Assembly (NCBI GenBank): GCA_025360005.1
Contig: JANYDA010000026.1
Location: forward strand, 1 to 64,000
DNA: 64,000 nt
Origin: Fibrobacteria bacterium
Lineage (GTDB): Bacteria > Fibrobacterota > Fibrobacteria > UBA11236
Direction: 5' to 3'
Of the stretch, positions 26,164 to 62,720 are shown piece after piece. The notes beneath the pieces were generated by a model. That model saw only the letters and a list, made by a program, of their open reading frames with translations. It searched no databases and was not told where the DNA came from. Both the position numbers and the translations under genes were made by a program. How positions within the stretch are numbered: the first letter of the stretch is position 1; each line of letters starts with the position of its first letter.

Positions 26164-27075
26164 CTTCTTAACCGAGCTGCAATAAGCCGCGTCCGTGTGC
26201 ATGTCCAAGGGGCCGGCATTCGGGCCGATATTCGCTCCCAAGCCGGTGAGACAGTTCTGGGTCCATCCCGTTCCATCGTATTTTTTCCAAAGTCCGGACC
26301 CGACTCCCGGGGTGGAGGCTTTTGCCGCGCTGACCACCATAGAAATTTTGGCCCGAGCCACGGAAGGGTACTGCGAAGCGCTAGTCGCCTTTTTCTTCTC
26401 ATTGAAATACACGTAGAAAGAATCGTTCTTAAGGATATAAGCGCTGCCTCCGATATTGTCGCGTCCAAACCCAATCTCGTTCACGCCGATAATGTCTCCA
26501 AGAAATGTCCAATTCAACCCCGCATCTTTCGAATAAACCAAGCCTATGCGATAATGGTGGGCGGTTGGGGCTTTGGACGCGTCGGTAGTGTATCCCGGAT
26601 AATATTTGGTCCCAATCTTGTTCCAACCAAGGTATTCGATATGTTCGAATCCCAAGAGTTCAGATGTGGAAATCTGGTAGATATTCATCAAGTAAAAATT
26701 CGCGACACGATAGGTCACCTTGTTTGTATCGGCAATCCCAGGATACAGCAGACGGTTGATCTGGACGCTGCCCGCCAGTGCGGAAGGTATGGTGACGTTT
26801 TGGTAAGTCTGTGTATTTGGATTCAATAGGATTTGTTGGGGGTTATTCATCGGCCCATGGTATTTGAACGTAGTGTTCCAGCTTGATCGGAATAGGTAAA
26901 CGCTATCCTTGCCGTCCCCGAACGGGGAACCCGGCGCATCCGCTATAGGGTTGGATGCATCATAGACGAGTTCGCGGGAGCCAATGGTTAGCGGCAATGC
27001 GGCATAAATTACGGGCTCTAAGAACAAAAGCAACAGAGCGAAAGCAAATCGAACGCAATTTTTTTTCAAGGCCAT
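26080..27075 (-). CDS. exported beta-propeller protein, truncated by the IS (5' part)
   Basis: 331 residues are open, but only about 304 are native. The signal peptide (FAFALLLLFLEPVIYAA) and a propeller of sialidase/GH43-like blades follow (DSVYLFRSSWNTTFKYHGP, HYRIGLVYSKDAGLNWTFLGD). The last native residues are DMHTDAAYCSSVKK. After that the frame enters the IS1634-like element and ends 65 bases inside the transposase gene on its opposite strand, adding about 27 foreign residues. The missing blade is probably at 23844-24227. By analogy with the gene at 23816, initiation may be the TTG at 27069. Substrate unknown. Confidence 0.7.
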   Translation of the reverse strand: MALKKNCVRFAFALLLLFLEPVIYAALPLTIGSRELVYDASNPIADAPGSPFGDGKDSVYLFRSSWNTTFKYHGPMNNPQQILLNPNTQTYQNVTIPSALAGSVQINRLLYPGIADTNKVTYRVANFYLMNIYQISTSELLGFEHIEYLGWNKIGTKYYPGYTTDASKAPTAHHYRIGLVYSKDAGLNWTFLGDIIGVNEIGFGRDNIGGSAYILKNDSFYVYFNEKKKATSASQYPSVARAKISMVVSAAKASTPGVGSGLWKKYDGTGWTQNCLTGLGANIGPNAGPLDMHTDAAYCSSVKKYPTFLDPKRRFPDLAHAFGRQWARIVG

Positions 27076-27299
27076 ATCCTTTTTTTTGGATTGCCAAAAA
27101 GATTTTACAATTAGCGGGCTTGCGACAGATTACTTAGCGTAAAAAAGATGCTTTCGTAAGCTACCCTGTCAATGCCTTTTTGTCAATACGATTTAATAGT
27201 TAATTTAAATTCCTTTGCTGTCCTAATATCTGCATTCCGATGGCCCATACAATTTCCCCCATTTACCAATCTCCGTCGTATTTAACCGCTTATTATATC

Positions 27300-33576: not shown

Positions 33577-33882
33577 TTACATGCCCGGGATGCCCAGTCC
33601 CTTGGTCAATCCGCCCATTTTCTCCTGCGAGGCTTCGTCCACCTTGGCGCGCGCGGCGTTGAACGCCGCCAGCAGCAGATCTTCCAGAGCTTCCACGTCG
33701 TCCGGATCCACCGCATCCTTGGCCAGTTTCACCGATTGCACTTCATACTTGCCGTTCATGGCCAGTTTAACCATGCCGCCGCCCACTTCGGCCGAGAACA
33801 GCGCGGTTTCCATTTCCTTCTGCACATTGGCCATCTTGCCCTGCATCTTCTGCAGTTCCTTCATCATCTTTTGCATGTTCAT
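33577..33882 (-). CDS. ybaB: YbaB/EbfC family nucleoid-associated protein
   Basis: 101 residues. The N-terminal helix is MMKELQKMQGKMANVQKEME, with the central strand motif VGGGMVKLAMNGKYEVQSVKL and a long C-terminal helix (DLLLAAFNAARAKVDEAS) ending GLGIPGM, all typical. Dimeric members bind DNA as tweezers. It lies 43 bases after dnaX, the usual neighbour. The recR gene that often comes next is not present; an unannotated stretch and the heme operon follow instead. Confidence 0.95.
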   Translation of the reverse strand: MNMQKMMKELQKMQGKMANVQKEMETALFSAEVGGGMVKLAMNGKYEVQSVKLAKDAVDPDDVEALEDLLLAAFNAARAKVDEASQEKMGGLTKGLGIPGM

Positions 33883-33925: not shown

Positions 33926-36010
33926 TCACCCTACCAGGCGGCCTGCGAAAGTATCCCGGATGAAATTTATGATCGGCTCCCTACGCGCGGGATCCTCCGT
34001 CCCGAAATGCGTGGCCAGCGGTTCTCTCCCGGCAGGCGCGGATTCATCCAGGGCGAAACGGAGGGTGAAATCCCGGCCTTCCGCCACTTTGGAACCCAGG
34101 AACGCCTGGATGGATTTCCGGAACTCCGCGTCGTCGCCGATCAGGGAGAACGTGGATCGTTCCAGGAAGGTTACCCGTAACGCGGCAGTTTCCCCCGGTT
34201 CCGGTTCCAGCCGGGTCCGCAGCAGATGGGATCCCAGCAGGGGCCTCTGGGCCATGAATTCCCCTACCAGGACGTGCCAGATACCCGGCAAGGCCGCGGG
34301 CGAATCCTGAACGGGCGCGATCAGAATGTCCGCAGCCGCGGCGTTTTTGGGCGGAGCCATGGGCATGGGCGCTTCCGGATCCTCCGGATCCAGGTCGGGC
34401 TCCAAGTCCCGTTCCATATCCGCCTCCGCGTCCACCAGCCGCTCCGGCAAGTCCGGCAAAGGATACGGGGAAGGCATTCCGCCGCCAATGGGTTCGTCGG
34501 CTTCCGCGTTCGGCGCCGGCGCCAGGACAAGGGTGGCGAAGGCTTGGGACCCGAAATCGCGGCCCGTGGATTCACCGATGTCGGCGGTAGGGGAGGAAAA
34601 ATCCAGGGGAGTCGGGCTTTGGGTTTCCCGGGCCCGGTCCAAGGATTCCCCGGGGGCGGAAAGCCGGGTCGGATCGGGTTCCAGTCGGGATGGAGAGGGC
34701 GCTTCGGCCCGGGCCGTTGCCGGCGCGGGCGCCGCTGCCATGTCGGAAGCGGAGGCCGGCGCCGATTTCGCGATCGCGGCCGGCCAAGCGCTTATGCCGT
34801 CAAGCGGGCTTTTTTTTTTGACCTCGGAGAGGTCCGTTGCTGCGTTCCCGGGCGCGCGGCCGGATTCCCTGGCGACGGACCCGGGCGCGAAATCCTGGCC
34901 CAACACCTGCGACAAGGTGACCACCCGATCCAGGGCGGCCATGCGCGCGAAGCCCAGCTCCACCGCCAAGCGCGGATTGGCCGTGCTCTTCATCTGGGCC
35001 AGGATATCGGAAACCATTTTGGCGAAGCGGATGATGTCGCCGTCCCGCAATTCGGGCGCCAGCGCGGCCAATTCGGCGCAGCGGGCTTCGCCCAATCCCA
35101 GCGCGCCCGGGTTCACGCCTTGGCGCGCGAAGAGCATGTTGCGGAGGTATTCCCCGAAGGCCACCATCAGATCCGAAGTCTCGATGCCTTCGCGATGGGC
35201 TTCCTGCAAAGTCAGGAAACAGGTTTTTTGATCGTGCAGGATGAGCGCGCGCAAAAGTCCGTCGAACATGCCGTCGCGGGGCAGGCCCAAAACCTTGCGG
35301 GCCGCCTCCATGCTCAGGTCCGCGCCCGAGAACGCGTATACCTGATCGAAAAGGCTCAACGCGTCGCGCATGCTGCCGTCCGCCTTGCGGGCGACCGCCT
35401 CCAGGGCTTCGCGCTCCGGCTTGATGCTTTCCTGCGCGCAGACGTATTCCAGCCGCTCCCGGATATGCTGCTCGGAGATGCGCTTGAAATCGAACCTCTG
35501 TACGCGCGAAAGAATGGTATGCGGGAGCTTGTTGGCTTCCGTGGTGGCGAAGATGAAGACCACGTGCGGAGGCGGTTCCTCCAGGGTCTTGAGCAGCGCA
35601 TTGAACGCCGCCTTCGACAGCATATGCACCTCATCGATCACGTAGATCTTATAGCTGCCGTTCATGGGCGCGTAGTTCACTTGCTCACGGAGCTCGCGGA
35701 TATTATCCACGCCGTTGTTGGAGGCGCCGTCGATCTCCAGCACGTCCAGGGAGCTGCCGTTATTGACGGCCTTGCAATTGTCGCACTTGTCGCACGGGAT
35801 GGGGGTGGGGCCGTTCTTGCAATTGAGCGCCTTGGCCAGGATGCGGGCGGAAGTGGTCTTGCCCACCCCGCGCGTGCCCGTGAACAGATAGGCATGCGAA
35901 ATGCGCTTGCCCTCGATGGCGTTGCGGATGGTCTGGGCGATATGGTCCTGCCCCACCATGTCCTCGAAATTCTTGGGGCGCCATTTGCGCGCCATTGCCA
36001 GGTAAGCCAT
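33926..36010 (-). CDS. dnaX: DNA polymerase III subunit gamma/tau
   Basis: 694 residues. It is the ATPase of the clamp loader; tau links polymerases and helicase. Walker A GTRGVGKTTSARILAKALNC, the zinc module with CDKCDNC, SNNGVDNIRELR, Walker B VIDEVHMLSKAAFNALLKTLEEPP, and the SRVQRFDF arginine finger are intact (residues 1-230). The clamp-loader collar runs to about 385. Residues 400-580 are Pro/Ala/Asp-rich linker and the last 100 form a folded tau-like end. At codons 398-401 there is a run of ten A; slippage there gives a short gamma-like protein (separate entry). Confidence 0.97.
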   Translation of the reverse strand: MAYLAMARKWRPKNFEDMVGQDHIAQTIRNAIEGKRISHAYLFTGTRGVGKTTSARILAKALNCKNGPTPIPCDKCDNCKAVNNGSSLDVLEIDGASNNGVDNIRELREQVNYAPMNGSYKIYVIDEVHMLSKAAFNALLKTLEEPPPHVVFIFATTEANKLPHTILSRVQRFDFKRISEQHIRERLEYVCAQESIKPEREALEAVARKADGSMRDALSLFDQVYAFSGADLSMEAARKVLGLPRDGMFDGLLRALILHDQKTCFLTLQEAHREGIETSDLMVAFGEYLRNMLFARQGVNPGALGLGEARCAELAALAPELRDGDIIRFAKMVSDILAQMKSTANPRLAVELGFARMAALDRVVTLSQVLGQDFAPGSVARESGRAPGNAATDLSEVKKKSPLDGISAWPAAIAKSAPASASDMAAAPAPATARAEAPSPSRLEPDPTRLSAPGESLDRARETQSPTPLDFSSPTADIGESTGRDFGSQAFATLVLAPAPNAEADEPIGGGMPSPYPLPDLPERLVDAEADMERDLEPDLDPEDPEAPMPMAPPKNAAAADILIAPVQDSPAALPGIWHVLVGEFMAQRPLLGSHLLRTRLEPEPGETAALRVTFLERSTFSLIGDDAEFRKSIQAFLGSKVAEGRDFTLRFALDESAPAGREPLATHFGTEDPARREPIINFIRDTFAGRLVG
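34810..34819 (-). other. A10 slippery run within dnaX, predicted to make a gamma-like product
   Basis: On the coding strand, codons 398-400 (AAA AAA AAA) and the A of AGC form ten consecutive A. One extra A, or a -1 ribosome shift, gives Lys-Pro-Ala and a TGA, for a 403-residue product. Loss of one A gives Ala-Arg-Leu-Thr-Ala then TAA, 405 residues. Both stop right after the clamp-loader core, as gamma does in other bacteria. Confidence 0.65.
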
Positions 36011-38810: not shown

Positions 38811-39539
38811 ATGCCGGCATGGATCTACCCTTATCTCGGGGCCTTCCTCATCGGACTTTCCAAAGCCGGATTCGCCACCGGTCTGGGCATGTTGACCACG
38901 CCGCTCTTGGCCACGGCCGTCCCCGCACGCCAAGCCATCGGCATTATCCTTCCCCTGCTTTGCTTCGCCGATCTCATGACGTTGTCGGCCTTCTGGAAAA
39001 AGTGGCGGCTGGAGTTGATCCGCATTCCTTTCTTCGGGGCTTTGGCGGGGGTTGCGGTGGGGATGGGATTCGTGAATGTCATCTCCGAGCATTTCCTACG
39101 GGCGTCCATCGGCGCCAGCGCTTTGATCCTGACGGCTCTTTTGTTGATACGCAATGCCTGGTACCCGGCCAAGGTGTACCGGCCATCCGTGTGGGAAGCC
39201 CTATTGGTGGGGCTCGCCGCGGGATTTTCCTCCACAATCGCCCATGGCGCCGGACCCATCATGGCCATCTATCTCATGGCCCAGAAAACCGGCAAGTCCG
39301 AGTTCGTCGCATCCAACGCCATTTTTTTTACCGTCCTGAATCTCATCAAGGTCCCGCCCTATCTCTTCTCGGGTCTGATCACGGCGGCGACTCTCTTTCA
39401 GGATTTGCGCTATTTGCCCTTAATTCCGCTCGGAGTCGGAGTAGGTTGGCTAGCCAACCGCGCTTTGCCCCAAAAGGCCTTCGATGGGCTGGTTTACGGA
39501 CTTCTGATCGTGACCGGAATCCAACTTCTGCTTTCCTAA
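38811..39539 (+). CDS. TauE/SafE family membrane transporter
   Basis: 242 residues with about eight hydrophobic segments and the repeated halves of the sulfite exporter TauE/SafE family. The N-terminal GLSKAGFATGLGMLTTPLLA and the internal GLAAGFSSTIAHGAGPIMAIYL are the two signature re-entrant regions. Proposed substrates include sulfite and organosulfonates, but the family is broad. A sulfur-assimilation operon lies 3 kb away, though no direct linkage is visible. Confidence 0.9.
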   Translation: MPAWIYPYLGAFLIGLSKAGFATGLGMLTTPLLATAVPARQAIGIILPLLCFADLMTLSAFWKKWRLELIRIPFFGALAGVAVGMGFVNVISEHFLRASIGASALILTALLLIRNAWYPAKVYRPSVWEALLVGLAAGFSSTIAHGAGPIMAIYLMAQKTGKSEFVASNAIFFTVLNLIKVPPYLFSGLITAATLFQDLRYLPLIPLGVGVGWLANRALPQKAFDGLVYGLLIVTGIQLLLS

Positions 39540-49703: not shown

Positions 49704-50426
49704 TCACATCATGTCTTCTTTCCATACGAGGATGCTGCCGCAGCTCTCGCATGTGAGCAGAGCATTTTTTTTGCTGATCTCGATCACGCGTTGGGGCGTC
49801 TGGGTGCGGTTGCAGACCAAGCAGGCTTTTTGGGTGCGGTTGATTGCGGCGATCACGTTGGGATTCCCGCGGCGCTTGACCACGCGGTCGTAAACGGCCA
49901 GAACCTTCTTGTTGATCTTGTTACGGGGCGCTTCCGCTTTGCCGGTTTCCGAAGCCATCCTGTCTTCGATGCCGTTCAACTCTTCCGAAAGCTTGTTCAG
50001 CTCCGGCCCGTTGGTATCCAGCACCGTCTTGTAGGCGATGTCTGCGGTTTCCTTTTCCTTGAGCAGGTTCTCGAGGATCTGCTGGAAATGGATGACGTTG
50101 GCTTGCGCATTGTCGATGTTGCGCTTATGGGTGGCGATTTCCAGATGCACCGCATCGTACTCGCGATTGGTGCTGATGGCTTCCAGGCGATGATTGCTCT
50201 CCGTGAGGGCCGTCTGCTCTTGCGCCGCCATGTCCTGGTTCTCGGTAATCTTGGCTTTGGTCTCGGCGATGGCTGCGTTGGTCTTTTCCGAGTTGGTCTT
50301 TTCCCGTTCGATGTCGTCCTTGAGCGTCTGGATCCGGACGGGAAGGTCCTTCTTTGTGAGCTTAAGTTCGTAGACCTTCTTGTCCACCGCTGAGAGCTCT
50401 AAAAGGTACTGTAAATCCTCTTGCAT
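49704..50426 (-). CDS. coiled-coil protein with C-terminal zinc ribbon
   Basis: 240 residues. Residues 1-165 are a long antiparallel coiled coil with few hydrophobic breaks. The C-terminus (about 195-232) has CLVCNRTQTPQ...TCESCG, two CxxC knuckles of the C4-type zinc ribbon known from the CT398/HP0958 family. HP0958 (FlgZ) acts in flagellar sigma-54 control and RNA binding; family function here is not established. The gene is separated from pth by about 260 bases without clear features. Confidence 0.85.
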   Translation of the reverse strand: MQEDLQYLLELSAVDKKVYELKLTKKDLPVRIQTLKDDIEREKTNSEKTNAAIAETKAKITENQDMAAQEQTALTESNHRLEAISTNREYDAVHLEIATHKRNIDNAQANVIHFQQILENLLKEKETADIAYKTVLDTNGPELNKLSEELNGIEDRMASETGKAEAPRNKINKKVLAVYDRVVKRRGNPNVIAAINRTQKACLVCNRTQTPQRVIEISKKNALLTCESCGSILVWKEDMM

Positions 50427-61463: not shown

Positions 61464-62720
61464 TCAATCGTCCAGCACGGTAAACCGCGAACTGCCGGCA
61501 GGCACTCCGTCTACTTTCGCCGAAAGTAGGCAGATACCATGGGGAAGCGGGTTCCCGTTTTGTCTTCCTCCTTCCCAACTAACCTTAAGCGTTCCCGAAC
61601 CGTCGTAATTTCCGGCCCAGGATCGTATCCGCCTTCCTTCAAGATCGCGCAACTCAAGGCTGACACGCCCGGGTCGACCGGAAACAAAGAGCTGCAAGGA
61701 TTGCGGCGAAGCACCCCGCTCCATCCTGACGGAAATCCCTCGCGCGTCGTTCCCTCCCGCAGTCCGTACCGCCGTCGCGGGCACGTCTAGTCCCAGGAAT
61801 TGCACCGCCTTGTCCGCCAGGATCTGCAGGTTGTGCGGCTGGCCCTGTTCTTGGATGGCTTCCACCTGCACCTTGCCCGTGGCGTCCGTGTAACGGGTGC
61901 GGGTCCAAGTGGTCTGCGGAGTGTTGGCTTCCGTGGTGGCGGGAGTTTGGCCCGCCCCCAACACGTTGGTCCATTCCTTGATCTCTTCCCCGAAATTGTT
62001 GTAGTTGAGAACAGCGTCGTCGGTGCCGTGCCAGAGCTGGATGCGCGGCCTGGGACCCGTATAAGCGGGGAAGGCGGCGCGCACCTGATCGCCCCAGGCC
62101 GAAGCGGACTTGCTGATCTTGCCGCTCGCGCAATCGCTGTTCCAGGCATTGCTCCCGGAAAAGCAGGAGAACGGCACGCCCGCGAAGGCTGCGCCCGCCT
62201 TGAACATATCGGGATAGGAACCCAGCAACACATTGGTCATCATGCCGCCGGAAGAGTGGCCTGCCGCGTACACGCGGGTGGAATCCGCGTGATAGTTCCG
62301 CACCACATAGCGCACCATGGAGACGATGCCGCCTGGATCGCTGCCGCCGCCATGCGTCAGGGCCGCTTGGGAATGCACGTCCCAGCAGCTGTCGCTGCTC
62401 CTGGCATTGGGGTAGATGACGATGAAGCCGTATTTGTCCGCCTGGGCCGCGAACTGGGTGCCCGTGAAGAAGGCGGGGCCGCTGCCATGGCACCAATGCA
62501 GGCCCACCAGGACGGGCGGACGGGCCAGTAACTTGTCCGGTACGTACAGGTACATGCGGATATTGCTGGGATTATAGCCGAAGTCGGCGATTTCCTTGAG
62601 GGCGGCCGCGCCGGCCGGAATCGCAAGGGAAAGGGCGGCCGAAAAGGCCAAGAGGAACCCGCGCCGCAACGGGGCGAGTGCGAAGGGTACCGTTGGATGG
62701 GATTTTTTTTTCAATGCCAC
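61464..62720 (-). CDS. secreted carbohydrate esterase/PHB-depolymerase-like protein (CE1-type)
   Basis: 418 residues; GTG at 62720 or TTG at 62714, both before a signal peptide. An alpha/beta hydrolase of the LpqC/PHB depolymerase-CE1 group: GLHWCHGSG oxyanion region, GHSSGGMM with nucleophile Ser156, LWHGTDDAVLNY with Asp, and QPHNLQ with His. Such enzymes cleave acetyl or feruloyl esters from xylan. The last 100 residues have a strand-rich FlgD-like sorting domain (LRDLEGRRIRSWAG, GICLLSAKV). It lies upstream of the cellulase on the same strand, 158 bases apart, suggesting joint use in plant cell wall breakdown. Confidence 0.85.
   Translation of the reverse strand: MALKKKSHPTVPFALAPLRRGFLLAFSAALSLAIPAGAAALKEIADFGYNPSNIRMYLYVPDKLLARPPVLVGLHWCHGSGPAFFTGTQFAAQADKYGFIVIYPNARSSDSCWDVHSQAALTHGGGSDPGGIVSMVRYVVRNYHADSTRVYAAGHSSGGMMTNVLLGSYPDMFKAGAAFAGVPFSCFSGSNAWNSDCASGKISKSASAWGDQVRAAFPAYTGPRPRIQLWHGTDDAVLNYNNFGEEIKEWTNVLGAGQTPATTEANTPQTTWTRTRYTDATGKVQVEAIQEQGQPHNLQILADKAVQFLGLDVPATAVRTAGGNDARGISVRMERGASPQSLQLFVSGRPGRVSLELRDLEGRRIRSWAGNYDGSGTLKVSWEGGRQNGNPLPHGICLLSAKVDGVPAGSSRFTVLDD

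Follow-up and report, generated by a model that had tools for sequence, protein, structure and literature searches.

Programmed slippage in dnaX, by which the tau and gamma proteins are obtained from one gene, is known from several bacteria. The site in Escherichia coli consists of the heptamer A_AAA_AAG with an upstream Shine-Dalgarno (SD) sequence and a downstream stem-loop (PMC5009743, PMC3711429), while in Thermus thermophilus dnaX transcriptional slippage takes place on a run of nine adenines (A9) (Larsen et al. 2000, via PMC1088944 and PMC5009743). A reversed type has also been described, comprising 17 genes, nine of them with 10 A's, for which transcriptional realignment was inferred (Antonov et al. 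2013, PMC3711429), and a single nucleotide can swap the roles of tau and gamma (Atkins et al., PMC5009743). Outside dnaX, a nascent stem-loop enables slippage at the Roseiflexus IS630 site GCGGGCgcaaGCCCGC-U5C5 (Penno et al. 2015, via PMC5009743). The need for gamma in cells is debated (PMC5009743).

Here we analyse a tract of ten A's (A10) in the dnaX gene of a member of the Fibrobacterota, located in a stretch of 64,000 nt (the window). From sequence comparison we read this tract as a programmed slippage site, most likely a transcriptional one, through which one gene would yield both tau and gamma, and we assign this reading a probability of roughly 0.8. As dnaX slippage is already known from Thermus, what appears to be new is the hairpin adjoining the tract, along with comparative evidence that is unusually strong. 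In the papers that we could consult we came upon no description of the Fibrobacterota site, its phylum-wide conservation or its hairpin; the survey of PMC3711429 took in one Fibrobacteres genome.

Results

The product of dnaX comprises the clamp-loader ATPase core, domain III, the linker and the C-terminal region. Pfam matches to PF13177, PF22608 and PF12169 cover residues 21-364, and the NCBIfam model TIGR02397 (dnaX_nterm) scores 450.6 bits against a cut-off of 250 bits. Directly downstream, in the direction in which dnaX is read, lies a short ORF (33577-33882) that we take to be ybaB from the look of its sequence. A sequence-only reading of this DNA had located ten A's at codons 398-401, and they are indeed found there (TTTTTTTTTT on the plus strand, A10 on the coding strand), the coding strand reading GTC AAA AAA AAA AGC or, in longer context, GAC CTC TCC GAG GTC AAA AAA AAA AGC CCG CTT GAC GGC ATA AGC. 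It had also placed the tract exactly at the border between core and linker; the tract does lie where the variable linker starts, but not at the exact border, as residue 364, about 30 residues before the tract, is the last of domain III (PF12169) (Table 1).

A10 occurs once in the window, in dnaX, with 0.14 occurrences expected per dinucleotide shuffle, and pattern counts on both strands of the 4.98-Mb assembly gave two, i.e. the dnaX tract and one located 44 bases from a contig end. Three consecutive AAA codons are unusual for this gene, since lysine is encoded upstream of the tract by 3 AAA and 16 AAG codons. Shorter runs are also present: there are nine A8 matches in the window, dnaX included, against 2.5 expected from shuffling, and the other A8-A9 runs are all found on the minus strand (27059-27066, 27080-27087, 39322-39329, 49765-49772 and 62703-62711).

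Both non-tau frames close near the tract, with TGA after two codons and TAA after five. Translation of an mRNA with one extra A (A11) predicts a protein of 403 aa ending in ...VKKKKPA (44,348 Da), and one A fewer (A9) predicts 405 aa ending in ...VKKKARLTA (44,565 Da). The two lengths are exactly those given in the sequence-only reading for slippage either way, and the computed sizes of 44.3 and 44.6 kDa agree with the product near 44 kDa that it had predicted.

Table 1. Positions of the dnaX gene, its A10 tract and associated elements in the window
Feature	Position	Strand	Description	Basis
dnaX	33926-36010	(-)	694 codons, encodes tau	ORF, Pfam, NCBIfam
A10 slippery tract (putative)	34810-34819	(-)	dnaX codons 398-401	sequence; A8-A12 in 130/136 phylum members
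Hairpin GACCTC-TCC-GAGGTC	34820-34834	(-)	5' edge of tract	fold; positional structure excess over 34 genera
TGA	34800-34802	(-)	end of predicted 403-aa gamma (one extra A)	sequence, translation
TAA	34792-34794	(-)	end of predicted 405-aa gamma (one A fewer)	sequence, translation
Tau-only portion of dnaX	33926-34809	(-)	linker and C-terminal region, absent from predicted gamma	C-terminal domain conserved in phylum

The nearest named relatives of the genome are Fibrobacteres and Chitinivibrionales MAGs. From 168 genomes of the phylum Fibrobacterota we retrieved and read 136 dnaX genes. Relatives lacking the A run had been named as an observation that would speak against slippage; instead, a run of A8-A12, mostly exactly A10, is present at codons 375-430 in 130 of the 136. 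Depending on the lineage, these 130 runs start at codon position 1, 2 or 3, so that all three phases are seen, and the residues encoded by them vary as well (KKKS, LKKK, EKKN). Because both phase and encoded residues differ among lineages, it is the nucleotide tract that is kept and not the peptide. Lysine codons inside the runs are almost exclusively AAA (373 AAA to 3 AAG, compared with 1113 to 1481 upstream in the same phylum genes). Stops in both non-tau frames follow at a median distance within three codons after the run, and among control sites taken from these dnaX genes only ~5% have stops as close.

Six of the 136 genes are without a run, namely G012 and G014 (family f4), G087 and G088 (f8), and G010 and G063, the last two being incomplete dnaX genes. 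The dnaX genes of G012 and G014 have no match to a profile made for the C-terminal region of tau; their DnaX proteins stop ~440 residues in, with short tails (..LVETFDATPTSE and ..LVDTFDATPTSE), and loss of the run coincides in them with loss of a recognisable tau domain.

When this profile was searched in all three frames of the phylum genes, 107 genes proved to have the tau C-terminal region in the zero frame, while in 10 it is shifted: five times in the -1 frame (G054, G075, G080, G085, G024) and five times in the +1 frame (G061, G078, G079, G027 and the run-less G087). In addition, all 11 species of genus g11 carry A9 followed by a conserved tail (e.g. SPFEKDLKENPHFADFVKYMGLKL) that is open only in the +1 frame, whereas the zero frame closes 4-50 codons past the run. 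This tail is short (80-111 codons), is conserved only in the +1 frame, goes unmatched by the C-terminal profile used for the other phylum members, and seems to be a reduced or replaced tau tail. The reversed layout of g11, like that of G068 and G069, is common to related species. As the tau C-terminal region of reversed genes is out of frame, slippage is needed there for tau, and gamma is the encoded product. G024 and G027 combine A11 with a shifted frame; their sister species have A10, for which reason the A11 could be an assembly error. In G087, PVQAEAV is repeated in tandem in the linker, and the C-terminal domain is read in the +1 frame with no A run in the gene; this may stem from collapse of the assembly or from a frame change of a different kind. 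The proposal of programmed slippage in dnaX, made in the sequence-only reading, is therefore supported at the level of sequence by the conservation of the run, its occurrence in all three phases, the near stops and the out-of-frame tau of several lineages.

That reading mentioned no hairpin and left the mechanism open. The hairpin at the tract has a stem of 6 bp, a loop of 3 and a folding energy of -7 kcal/mol. Within the genus of this genome a GC-rich hairpin touches the run, in five species of the form GACCTC-NNN-GAGGTC and in G001 with a different, 9-bp stem; a clear stem at the run is missing in three of the four species of the sister genus, and in several relatives A10 has no clear stem beside it. 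When 24-nt segments were folded in 34 genera, the profile showed a sharp minimum of -5.1 kcal/mol for the segment ending at the run, compared with about -1.9 to -3.6 kcal/mol at other upstream positions, the neighbouring one excepted. An earlier perfect-stem score, by which 60 of 130 genes fell below 0.05 relative to other positions of the same gene, ignores the protein and was therefore replaced by randomisation of synonymous codons. In this test the structure at the run border exceeds expectation (z -0.80; negative in 26 of 34 genera; p about 4e-5 by the Wilcoxon test); farther upstream the 34 genera show no excess, and 6-18 nt upstream of the run structure falls slightly short of expectation. 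Taken by itself, the hairpin of this genome does not reach significance (p 0.14), nor does the excess over 11 families (p 0.21), the signal being clear inside f3 and f7. Stem covariation among Fibrobacter-type sequences is not above column shuffles. The case for the hairpin accordingly consists of the position-specific folding excess and the different stems at the same place, not of covariation.

Outside the phylum, a mixed set gave a weak hairpin signal (n=23, p 0.035), and for Bacteroidota a raw dip is seen, yet it is not above synonymous expectation (z -0.15, p 0.17). An A9-A11 run is present in dnaX of 66 of 110 sampled Bacteroidota genomes, and in many of these the tau tail is in the -1 frame. 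Since A_AAA_AAG stands in the zero frame in 21 of the 66, some Bacteroidota may use ribosomal frameshifting at dnaX.

Discussion

We propose that the ten A's make RNA polymerase stutter, which would produce dnaX mRNAs with varying numbers of A. Transcripts with 10 A's, or with 10 plus or minus a multiple of three, would give tau (694 aa), while those one A longer or shorter would reach a stop (TGA or TAA) 2-5 codons on and yield gamma of 403 or 405 aa (~44.5 kDa), which would retain the clamp-loader core and be without the C-terminal region. The nascent-RNA hairpin at the run would probably promote slippage: it would form in the RNA exit channel while the 9-10 bp hybrid consists of A:T pairs throughout, like at an intrinsic terminator. 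Its position touching the run would fit the exit channel behind such a hybrid; a hairpin at that spot would, on the other hand, sit within a ribosome decoding the run. The hairpin is a new element at the dnaX site, with a presumed role in slippage. That a homopolymeric slip tract and a selected nascent-RNA hairpin act in an intrinsic-terminator-like manner, with polymerase and RNA structure setting the tau:gamma ratio in Fibrobacterota, is a tentative proposal, to which we give slightly less than even odds.

As to the machine that slips, comparison favours transcriptional slippage of the Thermus type over ribosomal frameshifting of the E. coli type. RNA polymerase is suggested by shifts in both directions, a criterion for transcriptional slippage (PMC3711429), by runs in any codon phase with lengths of 9-12, and by the rarity of A_AAA_AAG, which is in the zero frame in 3 of the 130 run-bearing phylum genes and not at the site of this genome, where A_AAA_AAA is followed by AGC. 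The same is suggested by the lack of a downstream structure peak in the folding profile over 34 genera and by the presence of both lysine tRNAs (tRNA-Lys TTT and tRNA-Lys CTT) in the genome, a situation tied to slippage in Thermus (PMC5009743). Alternatively, gamma might arise through -1 frameshifting at A_AAA_AAA or through sliding of ribosomes on poly-A, with the upstream GAGG perhaps helping as an internal SD sequence. Indeed, A_AAA_AAA is in the zero frame in 130 of 130 run-bearing genes, several genera have GAGG 2-3 nt 5' of the run, the anti-SD energy being about -5 kcal/mol in g1, g2, g4 and g11, and ribosome sliding on iterated AAA codons has been reported (PMC4363877). However, A_AAA_AAA is far less shift-prone than A_AAA_AAG (PMC5009743), SD-like strength near the run does not exceed what synonymous codons lead one to expect (z -0.12, p 0.70), and a search for a downstream stem-loop in this dnaX gave no structure in excess (z +1.24); with two lysine tRNAs and shifts both ways and in any phase also speaking against it, we consider a ribosomal origin unlikely, though ribosomes may make some contribution.

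A neutral or protein-level cause, i.e. a run that merely codes for a lysine stretch required in the linker, without any slippage, would agree with the at least two lysines encoded by the run in every phase, but neither the AAA preference inside the runs nor the change of residues and phase between lineages nor the stops in both other frames match it, and the reversed genes, with tau out of frame in several lineages, contradict it; we regard it as highly improbable. Just as little probability falls to phase variation, in which the tract would be a DNA-level contingency locus whose length is changed by replication slippage. The A11 and shifted frame of G024 and G027 beside A10 sister species would suit such a locus; however, these two may be assembly errors, in most species the tract leaves tau in frame, and whole groups, e.g. 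genus g11, have reversed frames in common. Tau is also expected to be essential.

If slippage at the tract does produce both proteins, a site kept in nearly every species of the phylum, with tau and gamma repeatedly swapping the role of encoded product, would argue strongly, on evolutionary grounds, for a need of both. Through the abutting hairpin, the way in which RNA polymerase might set the tau:gamma ratio would become open to test and, if the proposed role of the hairpin is true, stem-loop-stimulated slippage, described for one IS element, would also operate in an essential gene of the cell across much of a phylum.

Compared with known systems, the site resembles Thermus thermophilus dnaX, with which it shares a long A run within a single ORF for tau, stops close by in the two other frames and two lysine tRNAs; it differs by its A10 in place of A9 and its abutting 5' hairpin, and by the slippage being predicted here from sequence. 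As in E. coli (PMC5009743, PMC3711429), tau and gamma would come from one gene, with a short ORF extension after the predicted shift, yet there is no AAG heptamer and no downstream stem-loop peak, and two lysine tRNAs are present. With the two-ORF dnaX genes as described by Antonov et al. (2013, PMC3711429) it has in common the gene, the 10 A's and, in relatives within the phylum, the reversed layout, whereas this genome encodes tau and not gamma. Like the Roseiflexus IS630 site, as described in PMC5009743, it carries an inverted repeat immediately 5' of its tract in an intrinsic-terminator-like geometry; there the tract is U5C5, one base is deleted and the stem-loop is required, whereas the tract here is a homopolymer that should slip by itself, and it lies in an essential cellular gene.
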